Below, piece after piece: positions 33,705 through 40,707 of a stretch of DNA of 64,000 bases. The notes below the pieces were generated by a model. It saw nothing but the letters and a program-made list of their open reading frames with translations. It did no database searches and had not been told where the DNA came from. This DNA comes from Kineosporia mesophila (GTDB lineage: Bacteria; Actinomycetota; Actinomycetes; Actinomycetales; Kineosporiaceae). Location of the stretch: positions 1-64,000 of the forward strand of contig NZ_JAJOMA010000027.1 of assembly GCF_021129235.1 (NCBI RefSeq), in the 5' to 3' direction. The position numbers and the translations under genes are program-made. Every line of letters begins with the position of its first letter. The stretch's first letter is position 1.

Positions 33705-35225
33705 ATGACGGCGCAACTCGACGACCAGGCCGAGACCGACCCGACCGACGACACCACCGTCGAGGGCATCGACCCCGCTGACCTGGAACTCTGCCTACAG
33801 GTACTGGCCCGCGTGGAACAGCTGCCGGCCGAGCACCCGGACTTCCTGAAGGTGCGGCTGGCCACGGCCAAGATCTTCAAGGCGGCCAAGCTGGACCGTC
33901 GCGCCCAGCGCCGGGCCACGATCAACACCAACGACGCCGCCGTGACGGCCGCCACAGCCACCGGGGCCCCGGGCCGCATCGACGACGAGACCCAGGGCCT
34001 GCCCCTGTCCTCCGCGGCCGCCGCCGCGGGCGACGAGAACGGCTCGGCGGGTGAGTACATGCGCCCGCGCGGCTGCTACACCTGCAAGAAGCGCTACACC
34101 CGGGTCGACGCGTTCTACCACCAGCTGTGCCCGGACTGCGCCGCGAAGAACCGGCAGCGCCGCGACGCGCGCACCGACCTGACCGGCCGCCGCGCCCTGC
34201 TCACCGGCGGGCGGGCCAAGATCGGCATGCACATCGCGCTGCGGCTGCTGCGTGACGGCGCGCACCTGACCATCACCACGCGCTTCCCGGCCGACGCCGT
34301 GCGCCGCTTCACCTCGATGGACGACAGTCAGGACTGGATCCACCGGCTGCGTATCATCGGCATCGACCTGCGCGACCCGGCCCAGGTCAGCGCGCTCGCC
34401 GACGACGTGGCGGCGCAGGGTCCGCTGGACATCCTGATCAACAACGCCGCGCAGACCGTGCGCCGCTCCCCCGGCTCGTACGCTCCGCTGGCGGCCGCCG
34501 AGTCAGCGCCGCTGCCGCCGGGCCCGCTGCCGCAGATGCTGACGATCGGCCGCACCCCCGACGCGCACCCGGCGTCCATCGACGCGATCACCGGGACGAC
34601 GGCCGAGGCAGGTACGGGCCACTGGGCCCCTTCTCCCCACGCACTGACCGCTCTGGCACTCACCGCGGGTTCCGCGTCCCCTGCTCGCATCGCCGCCAAC
34701 ACCGCGATCGACGCCGGGGGCCTGGTGCCCGACCTGCACCACACCAACAGCTGGGTGCAGCCGGTGCAGGAGGTCGACCCGGTGGAGCTGCTCGAGGTGC
34801 AGCTGTGCAACAGCGTCGCGCCGTTCATCCTGATCAGCCGGCTGCGCCCGGCGATGGCCGCGGCCGGTTCGCACCGCAAGTACGTGGTCAACGTGTCGGC
34901 CATGGAGGGCAAGTTCAGCCGGGGCTACAAGGGTCCGGGCCACCCGCACACGAACATGGCCAAGGCCGCCCTGAACATGCTCACACGCACCAGCGCGCGG
35001 GAGATGTGGGAGAGCGACCGCATCCTGATGACGGCCGTCGACACCGGCTGGATCACCGACGAGCGGCCCCACCCGACCAAGATCCGGCTGGCGGACGAGG
35101 GTTTCCACGCCCCGCTGGACCTGGTCGACGGTGCGGCCCGGGTCTACGACCCGATCGTGCGGGGCGAGGCCGGCGAGGACCTGTACGGCATCTTCCTCAA
35201 GGACTACGACCCCACCGACTGGTAG
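33705..35225 (+). CDS. SDR-like protein with N-terminal zinc ribbon, catalytic Tyr absent
   Basis: This 506-residue protein has an acidic N-terminus, a helical segment (ADLELCLQVLARVEQL), then a zinc ribbon with cysteines 124, 127, 142 and 145 (RGCYTCKKRYT, LCPDC). From residue 158 it is an SDR Rossmann domain: RALLTGGRAKIGMHIALRLLRDG, LINNAAQTVRR, and VVNVSAMEGKF. Where YxxxK is expected the sequence is HPHTNMAKAALNML, so lysine is kept and the tyrosine is threonine. A low-complexity insert lies around residues 260-340. Classical oxidoreductase activity is doubtful; a binding or regulatory role is possible. Its 3-prime end nearly touches the convergent kinase-cyclase gene. Confidence 0.85.
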   Translation: MTAQLDDQAETDPTDDTTVEGIDPADLELCLQVLARVEQLPAEHPDFLKVRLATAKIFKAAKLDRRAQRRATINTNDAAVTAATATGAPGRIDDETQGLPLSSAAAAAGDENGSAGEYMRPRGCYTCKKRYTRVDAFYHQLCPDCAAKNRQRRDARTDLTGRRALLTGGRAKIGMHIALRLLRDGAHLTITTRFPADAVRRFTSMDDSQDWIHRLRIIGIDLRDPAQVSALADDVAAQGPLDILINNAAQTVRRSPGSYAPLAAAESAPLPPGPLPQMLTIGRTPDAHPASIDAITGTTAEAGTGHWAPSPHALTALALTAGSASPARIAANTAIDAGGLVPDLHHTNSWVQPVQEVDPVELLEVQLCNSVAPFILISRLRPAMAAAGSHRKYVVNVSAMEGKFSRGYKGPGHPHTNMAKAALNMLTRTSAREMWESDRILMTAVDTGWITDERPHPTKIRLADEGFHAPLDLVDGAARVYDPIVRGEAGEDLYGIFLKDYDPTDW

Positions 35226-35226
35226 G

Positions 35227-38200
35227 TCAGACAGTCCCGACCTGGTTGCGCCCGCCCTCCTTGGCCTTGTAGAGGCCCTGGTCGGCGCGGGCCAGCAGGG
35301 CGGCCACGTCCTCGTCGTCCGCGCGCAGGTGCGCGGCGCCGATGCTGATCGTGATCTCCAGCGGGCCGGTGCGGGTCTGGATCGGCGCCTCGGCGATGCA
35401 GACGCGCATCCGCTCGGCCAGTTCCAGACCCGGGTCGTCGCCCTGCTGCAACAGGGCGAACTCCTCACCACCGTAACGGCCGATGATATCGGTGGTGCGT
35501 ACCTCCGCGGCCAGGCGGCGGGCGACCTCGGCGATCACGTCGTCACCGGTCGGGTGGCCGTGGTTGTCGTTGACCCGCTTGAAGTGGTCGATGTCCATCA
35601 TCATGCCGATCAGCGGCCGGTCCTGGCGCTGGGCCGCCTCCAGGTCGCGGGCGGCGATCTCGAAGAACCGGCGCCGGTTGGCCAGCTGGGTCAGCTCGTC
35701 GACCACGGCCAGTTCCTGCACCCGCTCGAACAGCGCGGCCCGGTCGTAGGCGGTCATGCCCTGGGCCACGAGGGCGGCGGCCAGGTCGACCGACGCCGAC
35801 AGCGGGCTCTCGGCGTCCTGTGCCCCCAGTACGAGCAGCCCCAGGTCGACGTCGGTGGCCCGCAGCGGCAACGCCACCCACGAGGCGAGGCCCGGCAGCC
35901 GGTCGGGCAGGGGCGCCGGGGCGTCGGACGCGTCCCCCGAGACCGGGGTCAGCACACCGGAGATCGCCGCCGCGCTGCCGTCGTCGGTGAACGCCGTCAT
36001 CAGGGGCTGGCGCACGTCCGGGGTGAGGACGATGCCCGTGCGGTTCCCGACCCCGGACCGACCGGGCCGCAGCACGAACGCGGTGTCGGCGCCGAGCACC
36101 CCACCGCCCCGGCCGGCCGACAGCAGGAGCTGATTGAGCACACCCATCGGCTCGACCGGCTCGGCCATCCGCTCCTGGGCCTGCTGCAGGGCCTTCGCCA
36201 GCTCGGCCGACCGCTCGGCGGTCTGCGCCTTGATCGCCAGCTGGGCGGCACGGGCCGTCTCCAGGGACGAGGCCACGAAACTGGTCAGGGCGCCCAGGAT
36301 GACGGTGTCGTGGTGGGTGAAGATGCCCTTGGCGACCTGACTGTCGAGGTACACCACACCCCGCATCCGGCCGTCGAGCATCATCGGGGCCACCAGGATC
36401 GAGCGCAGGCCGTGCAGCACCACGCTCTGGGCCCCGAGCGCGGCTCCCTCCTCGGTGCCGGCCAGCACCTTGGGCTCGCCCGTGCGCCAGACCATCTCGA
36501 CCACGCTGGTGCTGTAACCGGTCAGCCGCTCCAGGTCCTCCCCGGCGGCCGACCGGCCCAGGTACTGGGCCAGCGTGCCGGTGTCGGAATCGACGAGGAA
36601 CAGGAACGCGCGGTCGGCGGCGAGGATCCGGATGGTCTCGTCCAGGGCGATCCGGGCCAGGACGCGGGGGTCCAGCACCCGGGCCGCGGCCGCGCTGACC
36701 TCCTGCAATGCTTCCAGGCGCTCGCGTTCATGACCGCCCGAGTAGGTGTTGCCGTGGCTGCCGCCGGTGAGCAGGACGCGGTCCTCGACCGGCAGGGAGA
36801 ACTCCCCGACCACGGACGCGGCCCGCTGGGGCCAGCCCTCCGCGACCGCCACCGCGTAGGCCGTGCGGGCGCGGCGGCGTCCCTCCTGCGGGTTCAGCGA
36901 GCGCAGGGCCCGCGCCGCGATCCGGGCCACCTCGAAGGCCACGGTCGGCAGGTCGTCCTCGACCGCGACGTCCAGGGCGGCCAGCACGTCCAGGGCCTTG
37001 CGGGGCTCGTCCTGCAGCACCAGCAGGTCGGCCCGGGCCACGGCCCAGAAGGCCTTGAGTTCCTCGGTGTTCGCCGCCCGGCCGAGAGTCTCGACCGCCT
37101 TGTGGGCCTGGCTCATCCGCAGCGCCTGCTGCTTCATCGCCTCGGGTGTGGTGGGGCGCGCGCAGGCCCGGGCCTGGGCCAGGCGGGCCGAGGCGATCAG
37201 CCAGAAGATCGGCCGCTGCGCGCGCCAGACCAGGCTCGGTGACAGCCGCAGCGCCTCGACGTCGCTGACCAGGTGGTCGACGGACTCGACGGTGCCGTCG
37301 TCCTCCAGCTGGACGAACAGGCCGGCCATCAGCCGGATGAAGTTCAGCTGCCGGGCGCCGATCTCGTCGGCCACCCGGTTCAGGCGGGACATCTCGGTCT
37401 CGGCCTCCACCGAGCGGCCCAGCAGGGCGGCCGTCATCGCCGGGGCGATGACGAACGAGGTGATCTCCTCGGCGCGGTCGCTGAGCCGCAGGCGGCCCTG
37501 GGCCAGCCAGTGCTGGGCGTCCTGCGTGCGCCCGGCGAAACAGGCGTTCAGGTTGAAGGTGCTCATCGAATCGATCAGCGGCACGAAGTCGAGCCACGGA
37601 CTGAAATCGTCGAACTGCGGACGCCAGCCCCGCCCCTCGGGGCGGTTGCCCGCCCAGGCACCGCCCAGACGGAACGAGCGCAGCATCGAGCGGGTCTGCG
37701 GCGTCTGCGCCGAGGGGTCACCGTCGCAGCGACGGAAACAGCGCTCCGCGGCCCGGTTCAGCCCCACGGCCGCGCAGAGCACGCCGACGTTGGCCTGGGC
37801 CGCCACGAACCGGCGGCCGTGGCCGAGCTTCGCCGCCCAGTACAGCGAGCGCAGGTTGTGGGCGATGAAGTCGGGCACCCGCATGCCCAGGTTCGCCCCG
37901 ACGATCGCGGCCTCGTGCAGCCCGGCCATCGTCAGCGCGCGGCGCCGGGCCTCACCGGTGGCGTCGCCGAGCAGCGGACGCAGACGACGGCGCACGACGG
38001 AGGCCAGGGCCATCGCCGCCGAGCTCAGGATGAACCAGAAGGTGCTGCGCGGCAGGGGTTTACCAGCTGCCGCGAAACCCTTGGCAATGGCGTCGGTGAG
38101 TTCCTCGCTGCGGTACCCGGCCCGGTGCACCTCGGCCAGCAGGGTGTAGATGGCCGCCTGGGACAGCGGATCCTTCTCGACCGCCAGAGCCTGTTCCAGC

Positions 38201-40707
38201 CGGCGCCGGGAGGCACTGAACTGCCCGGCCTGTTTCAGGGCCCGGCCCAGCAGCACGAGCACCACGCTGGAGCCGTTCTCGCGCCGGCGGGCCAGATGGG
38301 CGGCGTGCTCGAGGAACATCACGGCGTCCTCGCCCGCGGACTCCTCCAGCGCCAGTTTTCCCGCCTCCAGGCAGGCGGCGTAGACCTTGTCGGCCGAGGC
38401 CGCGGAACCGGCCTTCAGGTAGTGCCGGGCCACGGCGAAGGTGTGGGCGGCGGCCTGGGTGAACGAGGCGGAGCGGCGGGTGGCCAGCACGTCGGCGATG
38501 CGCAGGTGCAGTTGCTCCAGCTGCGCGGGGGTGAGCTCGGCCAGCACCGCCTCGGCGATCCGGCCGTGCAGGAACCGGAACGTGCCTCCCTCGGCCGGCT
38601 CGACCAGGCGCTGGCGGGCGGCCTCGGTGAACACGCCCAGCACGCTCGTGGTGCTGCGCCGCTCCACCGCCGCGACCACGTCGACCCGCACCTCGGCCCC
38701 CATCGCGGCGGCGACCACGAGCAGGTCGCGGGCGTGCGGGGCGAGGTTCTGCACACGGTTGACCAGCAGGCCCATCGCGTCCTGGGGCAGGTCCAGGGCG
38801 TCGAGGCGGTCCAGGTCGAGCTGCCACGTGCCCCAGTCCGGCCACAGCAGGCCGGCGTCCAGCACCGCCCACAGGTACTCCTGGGCGATGAACGGGTTGC
38901 CGTTGCTGCGGGTGGTGAGGGCGGCCAGATCGTCGTCGGGCAGTCGCTGGCCGGGGATCAGCGAGCGGATCTGGGAGCCGACGGCCGACTCGTCCAGCGG
39001 CGCCAGGCGCAGGTCGACGTCGAGCACCCGGGACGCCTGGGCGACGTAGGAGGCCAGGTCGGCGTTGCTGAGCACCCGCTCCAGCTCACCGTCGCGGCCG
39101 GTCCCCAGGTAGAGCATCGGCGCGTCGCGGATCTGCTCGGCGAGGTGCCCGATCACCTGACGCACGGACGCGTCGGCGGCGGTCACGTCGTCGAGGATCA
39201 GCAGCAGCCCGCCGGAGGTGCGGGCCAGGTCGAGAAGGGCCGCGGCGATCGCCGCGCCGAGCTGCTCGTCGTTCTGCTGCTCGACCAGGGCGTCGGCCCG
39301 GAGCTCGCCGGTGCCCTCGGCGGGTCCCTCGGCCAGGGGTATCTGCCCGGTGAGGGCCGCGATCTCGCTGGGCGAGTGCAGGGTCTCCTCGGCCGAGGCC
39401 GAGGCCGACGTCGGCTCGGTCGCCTCCCCGCCCGGGCGCACCACGGCGTCGAGCCCGGGGGCGATCCGGGCCAGCATCGCCGGTGACCAGGTCTCGAACA
39501 CCGCGCGCAGCCGGCCCGCCCGCGCCGACCGCTCGCCCCAGGGCAGGCGGGCGATCTGCTGCAGATGGTTGACGAAGACCTCACGGAACGCCGCGAAGGG
39601 CAGCGCCTCGTCGGTGAGCACCCGGGCCCGCAGCACCAGACCGCCGGTCTCCTCGAGCAGGTCGCCGAACTCGTGCACCAGACGGGTCTTGCCCAGCCCG
39701 TTGTCGCTGCGCGCGAAGGCGAACCCGCCGTTCCCGGCGCGGACCCGCGTCCATTGCTGTCGCAGGGTGTCCAGCTCGTTCTGCCGCCCGAACATCGGGG
39801 GCTTCTCCGCCCGGGCCGGGGCGCTCTGCTTGCCGGCCACGGCCCGCAGGTCACCGGCCAGCGCGCGGCCGTCCTGATAGCGGTCGTCGGGGTCCTTGGC
39901 CAGCAGGGTGGCCACGATCAGGGCGAGTTCCGGCGGGGTCTCGGGCACCAGGCCGGTCAGGTCCGGCGCGGCCAGCGAGGCGTGCGCCCGCAGCAGTTCG
40001 CCCACGTCGCCGGTGGGGAACGGCAGCACCCCGGCGAGGGCCTCGAACATGATCACGCCGAGCGAGTACAGGTCGGACCGGTTGTCCACGGGGCGCTTGA
40101 GCATGCCCGACTGCTCCGGCGCCGAGTAGGCGAGCGTGCCCACCGCGACCGGTGTCTCGTTCTCCTCGTCCTCACCCTCGCGGGCCGTGAGGCCGAAGTC
40201 GATGAGCCGGGCCTGCCCGTCGGGCAGCACCATGACGTTCTGCGGCTTGAGGTCGCGGTGCACCAGACCGCGCGCGTGCACCGCGGCCAGCGGCTCGATC
40301 ACGTCCAGCACCAGCGCCACCACCCGCTCGGCGGGCAGCGCGCCCCGGGTCAGCTCGTCGGCCAGGGAGGTACCGCGCACCAGGTCCATCACCAGGAACG
40401 GGCGGCGCTCGGCCACCCCCACCTGGTGCACCCGGGGCAGGCCGGGATGGTCCACCGCGGTGAGCAGCGCGGCCTCACGCCGCAGGCCGGCCAGCCCGTC
40501 GGGGCGGTCCAGCAGCTTCAGGGCGTACTCCTGGGAGTCCTGAAGCTCCCCGGCCTTCCCGACCGCACGACGCCGCACCCGATACACGGTGCTTCCCGCT
40601 CCACCACCCAGCTGACCCAGTACCTCGAAATCGGGTAGGTCGACGGGCACACCGACCGACGCCGTGCCCGCCCCGGCGCCCGGGGTCCCCCTCTGCTCCG
40701 GACTCAC
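35227..40707 (-). CDS. Ser/Thr kinase - AAA/TPR - GAF - GGDEF diguanylate cyclase fusion
   Basis: This 1,826-residue protein begins with a complete protein kinase domain (about 27-290): glycine loop LGGGAGSTVY, Lys64, HRDLKPQN with Asp152, and DFG at 170. An ATPase module follows from about 305 (FGRQNELDTL, NGLGKT with Lys340, LLLILDDV) whose first P-loop glycine is replaced. A long TPR-like region covers about 700-1290. A GAF domain lies near 1330-1490, a second weaker sensor follows, and a GGDEF domain ends the protein: DELTQLANRR, DIDHFKRVNDNHGH, and GGEEF at 1746-1750. An RTTD I-site stands five residues before RYGGEEF's Gly pair. The active loop is intact, so c-di-GMP synthesis is expected. 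GTG start; no signal peptide or membrane helix is obvious. It is convergent with the zinc-ribbon SDR gene. Confidence 0.93.
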   Translation of the reverse strand: MSPEQRGTPGAGAGTASVGVPVDLPDFEVLGQLGGGAGSTVYRVRRRAVGKAGELQDSQEYALKLLDRPDGLAGLRREAALLTAVDHPGLPRVHQVGVAERRPFLVMDLVRGTSLADELTRGALPAERVVALVLDVIEPLAAVHARGLVHRDLKPQNVMVLPDGQARLIDFGLTAREGEDEENETPVAVGTLAYSAPEQSGMLKRPVDNRSDLYSLGVIMFEALAGVLPFPTGDVGELLRAHASLAAPDLTGLVPETPPELALIVATLLAKDPDDRYQDGRALAGDLRAVAGKQSAPARAEKPPMFGRQNELDTLRQQWTRVRAGNGGFAFARSDNGLGKTRLVHEFGDLLEETGGLVLRARVLTDEALPFAAFREVFVNHLQQIARLPWGERSARAGRLRAVFETWSPAMLARIAPGLDAVVRPGGEATEPTSASASAEETLHSPSEIAALTGQIPLAEGPAEGTGELRADALVEQQNDEQLGAAIAAALLDLARTSGGLLLILDDVTAADASVRQVIGHLAEQIRDAPMLYLGTGRDGELERVLSNADLASYVAQASRVLDVDLRLAPLDESAVGSQIRSLIPGQRLPDDDLAALTTRSNGNPFIAQEYLWAVLDAGLLWPDWGTWQLDLDRLDALDLPQDAMGLLVNRVQNLAPHARDLLVVAAAMGAEVRVDVVAAVERRSTTSVLGVFTEAARQRLVEPAEGGTFRFLHGRIAEAVLAELTPAQLEQLHLRIADVLATRRSASFTQAAAHTFAVARHYLKAGSAASADKVYAACLEAGKLALEESAGEDAVMFLEHAAHLARRRENGSSVVLVLLGRALKQAGQFSASRRRLEQALAVEKDPLSQAAIYTLLAEVHRAGYRSEELTDAIAKGFAAAGKPLPRSTFWFILSSAAMALASVVRRRLRPLLGDATGEARRRALTMAGLHEAAIVGANLGMRVPDFIAHNLRSLYWAAKLGHGRRFVAAQANVGVLCAAVGLNRAAERCFRRCDGDPSAQTPQTRSMLRSFRLGGAWAGNRPEGRGWRPQFDDFSPWLDFVPLIDSMSTFNLNACFAGRTQDAQHWLAQGRLRLSDRAEEITSFVIAPAMTAALLGRSVEAETEMSRLNRVADEIGARQLNFIRLMAGLFVQLEDDGTVESVDHLVSDVEALRLSPSLVWRAQRPIFWLIASARLAQARACARPTTPEAMKQQALRMSQAHKAVETLGRAANTEELKAFWAVARADLLVLQDEPRKALDVLAALDVAVEDDLPTVAFEVARIAARALRSLNPQEGRRRARTAYAVAVAEGWPQRAASVVGEFSLPVEDRVLLTGGSHGNTYSGGHERERLEALQEVSAAAARVLDPRVLARIALDETIRILAADRAFLFLVDSDTGTLAQYLGRSAAGEDLERLTGYSTSVVEMVWRTGEPKVLAGTEEGAALGAQSVVLHGLRSILVAPMMLDGRMRGVVYLDSQVAKGIFTHHDTVILGALTSFVASSLETARAAQLAIKAQTAERSAELAKALQQAQERMAEPVEPMGVLNQLLLSAGRGGGVLGADTAFVLRPGRSGVGNRTGIVLTPDVRQPLMTAFTDDGSAAAISGVLTPVSGDASDAPAPLPDRLPGLASWVALPLRATDVDLGLLVLGAQDAESPLSASVDLAAALVAQGMTAYDRAALFERVQELAVVDELTQLANRRRFFEIAARDLEAAQRQDRPLIGMMMDIDHFKRVNDNHGHPTGDDVIAEVARRLAAEVRTTDIIGRYGGEEFALLQQGDDPGLELAERMRVCIAEAPIQTRTGPLEITISIGAAHLRADDEDVAALLARADQGLYKAKEGGRNQVGTV

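Follow-up and report, generated by a model that had tools for sequence, protein, structure and literature searches.

The general plan of a kinase joined to a cyclase is not new. It was described in 2005, when a survey reported a protein with a kinase, six TPR and a GGDEF domain in Clostridium thermocellum and already suggested a role for it in c-di-GMP production (PMC1262709). As described there, this protein (gi|23020879) has an N-terminal Ser/Thr kinase, a repeat region and a C-terminal GGDEF domain and, like the protein considered here, is 1826 aa long, but the passage concerned gives no AAA or GAF domain, and the comparison is by description only (PMC1262709). A 2019 paper cites a kinase-tail-FHA-GGDEF fusion from Sorangium (BE21_29150, 974 aa) and presents Bdellovibrio DgcB as phosphopeptide-gated (PMC6733907). 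Both resemble the present protein in joining a kinase or phosphopeptide input to a GGDEF domain, but they are FHA-based, and no STAND/solenoid/GAF hub is described for them in the relevant part of that paper (PMC6733907). Leptospira lic12324, given as PK-AAA_16-GAF-SpoIIE (PMC5100919), has the same kinase-AAA_16-GAF order, but its reported output is a SpoIIE phosphatase. The dual Ser/Thr-His kinases of cyanobacteria and other organisms are described as combining a Ser/Thr kinase and GAF in one chain (PMC1262709). Their output is a histidine kinase, whereas HisKA and HATPase are absent here, according to Pfam. Kinases of this dual type are known as HstK. The TOMM kinase/cyclase fusion family TIGR03903 matches the whole protein with an E-value of 2.4e-54, the best stretch lying in the kinase (residues 71-290), but its 184.7 bits fall short of the family's 705.75 cut-off, and the protein has no Pfam match to a class III cyclase. 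No experimental study of a protein of this kind was met in the literature searched, which covered few subscription journals.

The gene lies on the minus strand of the window (the whole stretch of DNA analysed, 64,000 nucleotides), in which positions 35227-40707 form one open frame of 1826 aa, with a GTG start at 40707 and 0 internal stops. A preliminary description had proposed a single polypeptide with a kinase at the N-terminus and a GGDEF domain at the C-terminus, separated by about 1,400 residues that included GAF-like sequence. This layout holds: the frame is uninterrupted, the separation runs from residue 277 to residue 1667, a Pfam GAF match is found between the two enzymes, and the four families named for a domain check (Pkinase, PF00069; AAA_16, PF13191; GAF, PF01590; GGDEF, PF00990) each score above their curated cut-offs. 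The domain order, from N- to C-terminus, is Ser/Thr kinase, STAND-type AAA_16, long helical stretch, GAF, degenerate GAF-like domain and GGDEF. The protein thus shares with the 2005 plan an N-terminal kinase and a C-terminal GGDEF domain in one chain. A cyclase had also been considered an unusual output for such a protein; a GGDEF domain does replace the histidine kinase here, but the claim is weakened because the combination of kinase, TPR and GGDEF was already reported in 2005 (PMC1262709). The features are as follows.

35227..40707, minus strand: whole gene, 1826 aa, open frame with a GTG start at 40707; orthologs in 5/5 other genomes of the genus.
39877..40629, minus strand: Ser/Thr protein kinase domain, residues 27-277 (Pfam PF00069, E 1.4e-34, 120.1 bits, cut-off 31.7).
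39121..39795, minus strand: AAA_16 (STAND-type) ATPase domain, residues 305-529 (Pfam PF13191, E 5.6e-14, 53.4 bits, cut-off 32.6).
39685..39708, minus strand: P-loop SDNGLGKT, residues 334-341, with Ser in place of the first Gly (Ser in 6/6 of the ortholog group, Gly in 6/6 paralogs).
39268..39435, minus strand: low-complexity, poorly conserved stretch in the interval from P-loop to Walker B, residues 425-480 (block pLDDT 25-46; dN/dS 0.51-0.90).
36754..38817, minus strand: helical stretch, residues ~631-1318, possibly a TPR-like solenoid (predicted model; no Pfam TPR match).
36265..36672, minus strand: GAF domain, residues 1346-1481, well conserved (Pfam PF01590, E 6.2e-12).
35773..36165, minus strand: tentative degenerate second GAF-like domain, residues ~1515-1645 (mixed alpha/beta, block pLDDT ~31-66).
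35242..35709, minus strand: GGDEF diguanylate cyclase domain, residues 1667-1822, with GGEEF and an RxxD inhibitory site (Pfam PF00990, E 3.4e-42, 144.4 bits, cut-off 23.8).

The 1826-aa protein is confirmed as a genuine single chain running from kinase to GGDEF. A frame break or assembly chimera is ruled out by full-length orthologs and paralogs in 5/5 other genomes of the genus; the architecture is not an assembly accident, because all six genomes, including that of the strain itself, carry both an ortholog and a paralog, each full-length. The paralog is 48-50% identical to this protein. Ten neighbouring frames were scanned with Pfam: four have matches (short-chain dehydrogenase, GH42, aldo/keto reductase and enoyl-CoA hydratase) and six have none. 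No operon partner was found among these ten frames, the Pfam-matched ones being metabolic. Long frames of 703 and 737 aa lie opposite the gene (window 35131-39486, plus strand); they are as expected from high-GC DNA and were not counted as genes.

The kinase domain, for which PknA and PknB are the best solved sequence matches, has the Lys, HRD Asp and DFG Asp of a bacterial Ser/Thr kinase, and these are found where the preliminary description had placed them (Lys64, Asp152 and Asp170). The GGDEF domain carries the GG[D/E]EF motif in the form GGEEF, with an RTTD inhibitory site before it, again as first described. Thirty-eight proteins, this one included, were aligned. Four were left out of the count: a protein truncated at a contig end, with no kinase; a protein lacking GGDEF; an HD-GYP protein; and a GGDEF-EAL protein with a probable pseudokinase. 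Across the 34 that were kept, complete kinase-GGDEF proteins that are related and not independent rows, Lys64, Glu78, His150, Asp152, Asn157 and Asp170 of the kinase are invariant, as are Asp1705, Asp1707, Asn1713, Asp1714, Asp1722 and GGEE of the cyclase. At other positions, Lys154 is replaced by Thr in two proteins, Lys1710 by Arg in one and Phe1750 by Met in one; the inhibitory site reads RxxD in 31/34. The residues taken to bind metal and substrate and the Asp at the presumed Hypr position are present in 34/34. Hypr enzymes are reported to have Ser at the position where canonical enzymes have Asp (PMC6456294). Judged by these main catalytic residues, the kinase and GGDEF ends are both apparently intact.

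The ATPase P-loop is more variable than the catalytic residues of the kinase and cyclase among the same 34 proteins. The STAND ATPase is recognised by AAA_16, but its P-loop, SDNGLGKT, departs from the canonical GxxGxGK[ST]; the altered first glycine pointed out previously is Ser334. At this position, 27 proteins have Gly, six Ser and one Val, and the P-loop Lys is replaced by Arg in one protein. The six Ser P-loops are those of this protein and its five orthologs, the paralogs having Gly in 6/6, and Ser is a derived state in this ortholog group. The HD-GYP protein dropped from the count also has Ser at this position. The ATPase of the ortholog group probably binds nucleotide with weakened turnover or none. 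Residues 425-480 are not clearly an insert in the ATPase, because the distances from P-loop to Walker B overlap (161 residues in this protein, 143 in the paralog and 142-162 in the other orthologs, except one of 448); they form a variable stretch instead. In the G002 ortholog (L179:875-7501), the interval from P-loop to Walker B is 287 residues longer than in this protein and consists of low-complexity sequence rich in Gly, Gln and Ala.

Identity to five distant relatives (the protein's own paralog, G008_a, G169, G153 and the Corallococcus protein) is 43-68% for the kinase, first GAF and GGDEF domains, 26-49% for parts of the ATPase, 25-38% for the helical stretch and 23-32% for the second GAF, for which the Corallococcus value rests on four aligned positions; a sixth distant row, G010_a, lacks GGDEF. 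Conserved enzymes flanking a divergent middle would be expected for a variable receptor. Within the genus, dN/dS between this protein and three of its five orthologs (G005, G003 and G002) ranges over 0.18-0.22 in the kinase, 0.05-0.23 in the first GAF, 0.32-0.42 in GGDEF and 0.17-0.43 in the helical stretch; the low-complexity stretch has both the lowest identity and the highest dN/dS among the regions compared. The kinase and GGDEF domains are both under purifying selection, GGDEF being no more constrained than the helical stretch. This selection, together with the presence of the main catalytic residues at both ends, makes it very improbable that the protein is a scaffold with one working end and an inactive enzyme at the other, even though the altered ATPase shows that decay of parts does happen.

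The middle region had been called TPR-like, a designation that is weakly supported. A model of residues 300-1345, built on four sequences (mean pLDDT 63.5), consists of helices beyond the ATPase. The top solved match to this model is a STAND-TPR protein (6mfv, E 2.3e-7, with a TM of only 0.22-0.30), and an entry concerned with maltose-system regulation stands at rank 50. Against this, Pfam TPR families gave no match in the protein at E-values up to 0.1, and no Pfam family matches the interval from ATPase to GAF. The paralog has one TPR-family match below the cut-off (TPR-S, 22.8 bits against 27.6). In the C-terminal model, the GAF domain is followed by a long helix, then by a second GAF-like fold of poor model quality, and finally by a further helix and GGDEF; the phytochrome-activated diguanylate cyclase of Idiomarina is the top solved match. 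The arrangement of domains relative to one another is unreliable, because both models are weak (mean pLDDT 66.2 for the C-terminal one, pTM 0.36-0.37 for the two, four sequences each). Three homologs (L095, L130 and L131) each have two GAF_2 stretches, the second GAF-like domain is nearly absent in Corallococcus (4/131 positions aligned), and no solved relatives of the GAF domain were found at E-values up to 0.01.

Beyond conservation, the only sequence evidence for coupling between kinase and cyclase comes from one genome, G010, in which one of two family proteins ends just before GGDEF. In this truncated protein, DFG has become GFG and Asn157 has become Thr; its P-loop is canonical. The kinase tree places it beside the Kineosporia proteins as their sister (100/95), nested among GGDEF-bearing proteins, so that both losses look secondary. 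The second copy in G010 (L178) keeps both kinase and GGDEF. The gene next to the truncated one, running toward it, presumably encodes a signal peptidase. The joint loss lends support to kinase-cyclase coupling, although it is a single event in a genome whose second copy is complete, and, taken with conservation, it favours a functional link between the two ends. The preliminary description had proposed that kinase activity gates the cyclase. Such a link could take the form of gating in cis, in which phosphorylation of the linker or the GAF/GGDEF region by the protein's own kinase would switch the cyclase on or off. The joint loss and the intact kinase in all 34 complete GGDEF-bearing relatives aligned would both fit gating in cis, and precedents are reported in phosphopeptide-gated DgcB and the Sorangium kinase-tail-FHA-GGDEF fusion (PMC6733907). 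This reading is unlikely, however, as the Pfam matches include no phosphopeptide-binding domain such as FHA, and a protein on the same chassis combines a probable pseudokinase with GGDEF-EAL. This 2094-aa protein of Kineosporia babensis (L148:205-6486; G060:C2) has the order probable pseudokinase-AAA_16-GAF-GGDEF-EAL; in its kinase the Lys is missing and DFG has lost its Asp (NFD), HHD retains the catalytic Asp, and GGDEF-EAL is kept, so kinase activity is not required in every case. Its kinase falls outside the 30-row clade of the kinase tree, and no full-length counterpart was found among 20 stretches compared from the strain's own genome.

Other outputs are found on the same chassis elsewhere: a histidine kinase (L145), a histidine kinase with a receiver (L140), HD-GYP (L138) and the GGDEF-EAL of L148. 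In the cyanobacterial metagenome bin RYN_339 (G059; loci L133-L144), chassis relatives end in GGDEF, HD-GYP, histidine kinase plus receiver, or nothing recognised. One of them (L138:562-6090) is a kinase-AAA-TPR-GAF-HD-GYP protein with a c-di-GMP-breaking output. Its HDVGK, HHE and GYP motifs are present, and the kinase tree places its kinase as sister to one from a GGDEF protein (99/90); therefore, making and breaking outputs occur on closely related chassis. The range of outputs and the sister relationship of these two kinases would suit two parallel outputs, the kinase acting on other proteins and the cyclase making c-di-GMP under a shared sensor, with no action of one on the other. We consider this unlikely, since the joint loss in G010 would then be a coincidence or a common relaxation after a lost job.

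The best reading, although it has only about an even chance of being right, is that of a signal-triggered oligomerising scaffold that switches the kinase and a feedback-inhibited cyclase together. The protein would be a stand-alone, probably cytoplasmic signalling hub that has c-di-GMP synthesis as its output on a kinase-STAND-solenoid-GAF chassis. Sensing of a partner or a small molecule would lie with the variable solenoid, and perhaps with GAF too; the STAND core would then change its nucleotide state or oligomerise; this would bring two kinase and two GGDEF domains together and so start autophosphorylation and c-di-GMP synthesis at the same time; and product feedback through the RxxD site would damp the cyclase. 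The location, the sensing, the oligomerisation, the order of events and the effect of phosphorylation on the cyclase are all steps that we infer. GGDEF enzymes act as dimers, bacterial Ser/Thr kinases are commonly activated through dimer-dependent autophosphorylation, and STAND cores that carry a solenoid commonly serve as oligomerisation switches. The simplest single step to account for both ends would be their joint control through oligomerisation. In favour of this reading are the four significant domains, the invariant catalytic residues, the conserved enzymes around a divergent middle, the G010 loss and the top solved matches of the two models. Against it are the G010 loss being a single event in a genome with a complete second copy, the K. 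babensis protein with its probable pseudokinase, a GGDEF domain that within the genus is no more constrained than the helical stretch, the weakness of both models, and metabolic neighbours that point to no partner.

The fused GGDEF domains are likely to have several origins, to judge from the trees. Those of actinomycetes form one group (29 rows, 98/96, in a 118-row tree with unsettled bootstrap), as does the matching set of 30 fused rows in a 119-row tree (81/86, bootstrap likewise unsettled). One common origin for every fused GGDEF is disfavoured, as the 35 fused rows need five changes on the best 118-row tree and the starred branches force two. The G002 ortholog is absent from the kinase tree and the 118-row GGDEF tree; a fragment with an identical domain grouped with the orthologs in the 119-row tree. 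The Corallococcus kinase lies inside the actinomycete clade and its GGDEF outside the actinomycete group; the tree test does not reject a placement together (p-AU 0.371), and a domain swap is not claimed. A tentative wider reading, possible but with the balance against it, is that the widespread chassis is a general adaptor between phosphorylation and c-di-GMP, to which c-di-GMP enzymes were fitted more than once and whose own kinase is needed for control of the cyclase. If so, this would explain why kinase and GGDEF decay jointly while the ATPase can decay alone, and the outputs on the chassis would comprise c-di-GMP synthesis (GGDEF), c-di-GMP breakdown (HD-GYP) and a mixed type (GGDEF-EAL). 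Studies usually treat Ser/Thr phosphorylation and c-di-GMP as two distinct networks. The presence of both enzymes, apparently intact, in one conserved protein, in two copies in 6/6 genomes of the genus, offers a direct test of control of one by the other, and the derived P-loop of one copy versus the canonical P-loop of the other provides a natural comparison for the contribution of the ATPase.

Similar proteins occur in other actinomycetes, in Corallococcus and in the cyanobacterial bin, the closest named relative being from K. babensis (67% by tblastn). With 4 to 36 candidates scored per genome, so that counts are lower bounds, matches at an E-value of 1e-80 or better were found in at least 8/13 genomes of Kineosporiaceae. 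Matches were also found in at least 4/118 genomes of a class sample (the strain's own included), at least 10/35 genomes of the family of one class-sample match (two genomes being common to the class sample) and at least 1/58 of a Myxococcota sample, in which the Corallococcus genome itself was the only one among the candidates scored. The bin RYN_339 has 54 matches to the chassis profile at an E-value of 1e-60 or better, a figure that includes hits to single domains and to several pieces of the same protein and is not a protein count; Pfam gives the order kinase-AAA-TPR-GAF-GGDEF for three proteins of the bin (L133, L134 and L135). The strain's own genome also encodes a 1323-aa kinase (L150:1041-5009) with a PsbP-like C-terminal match.
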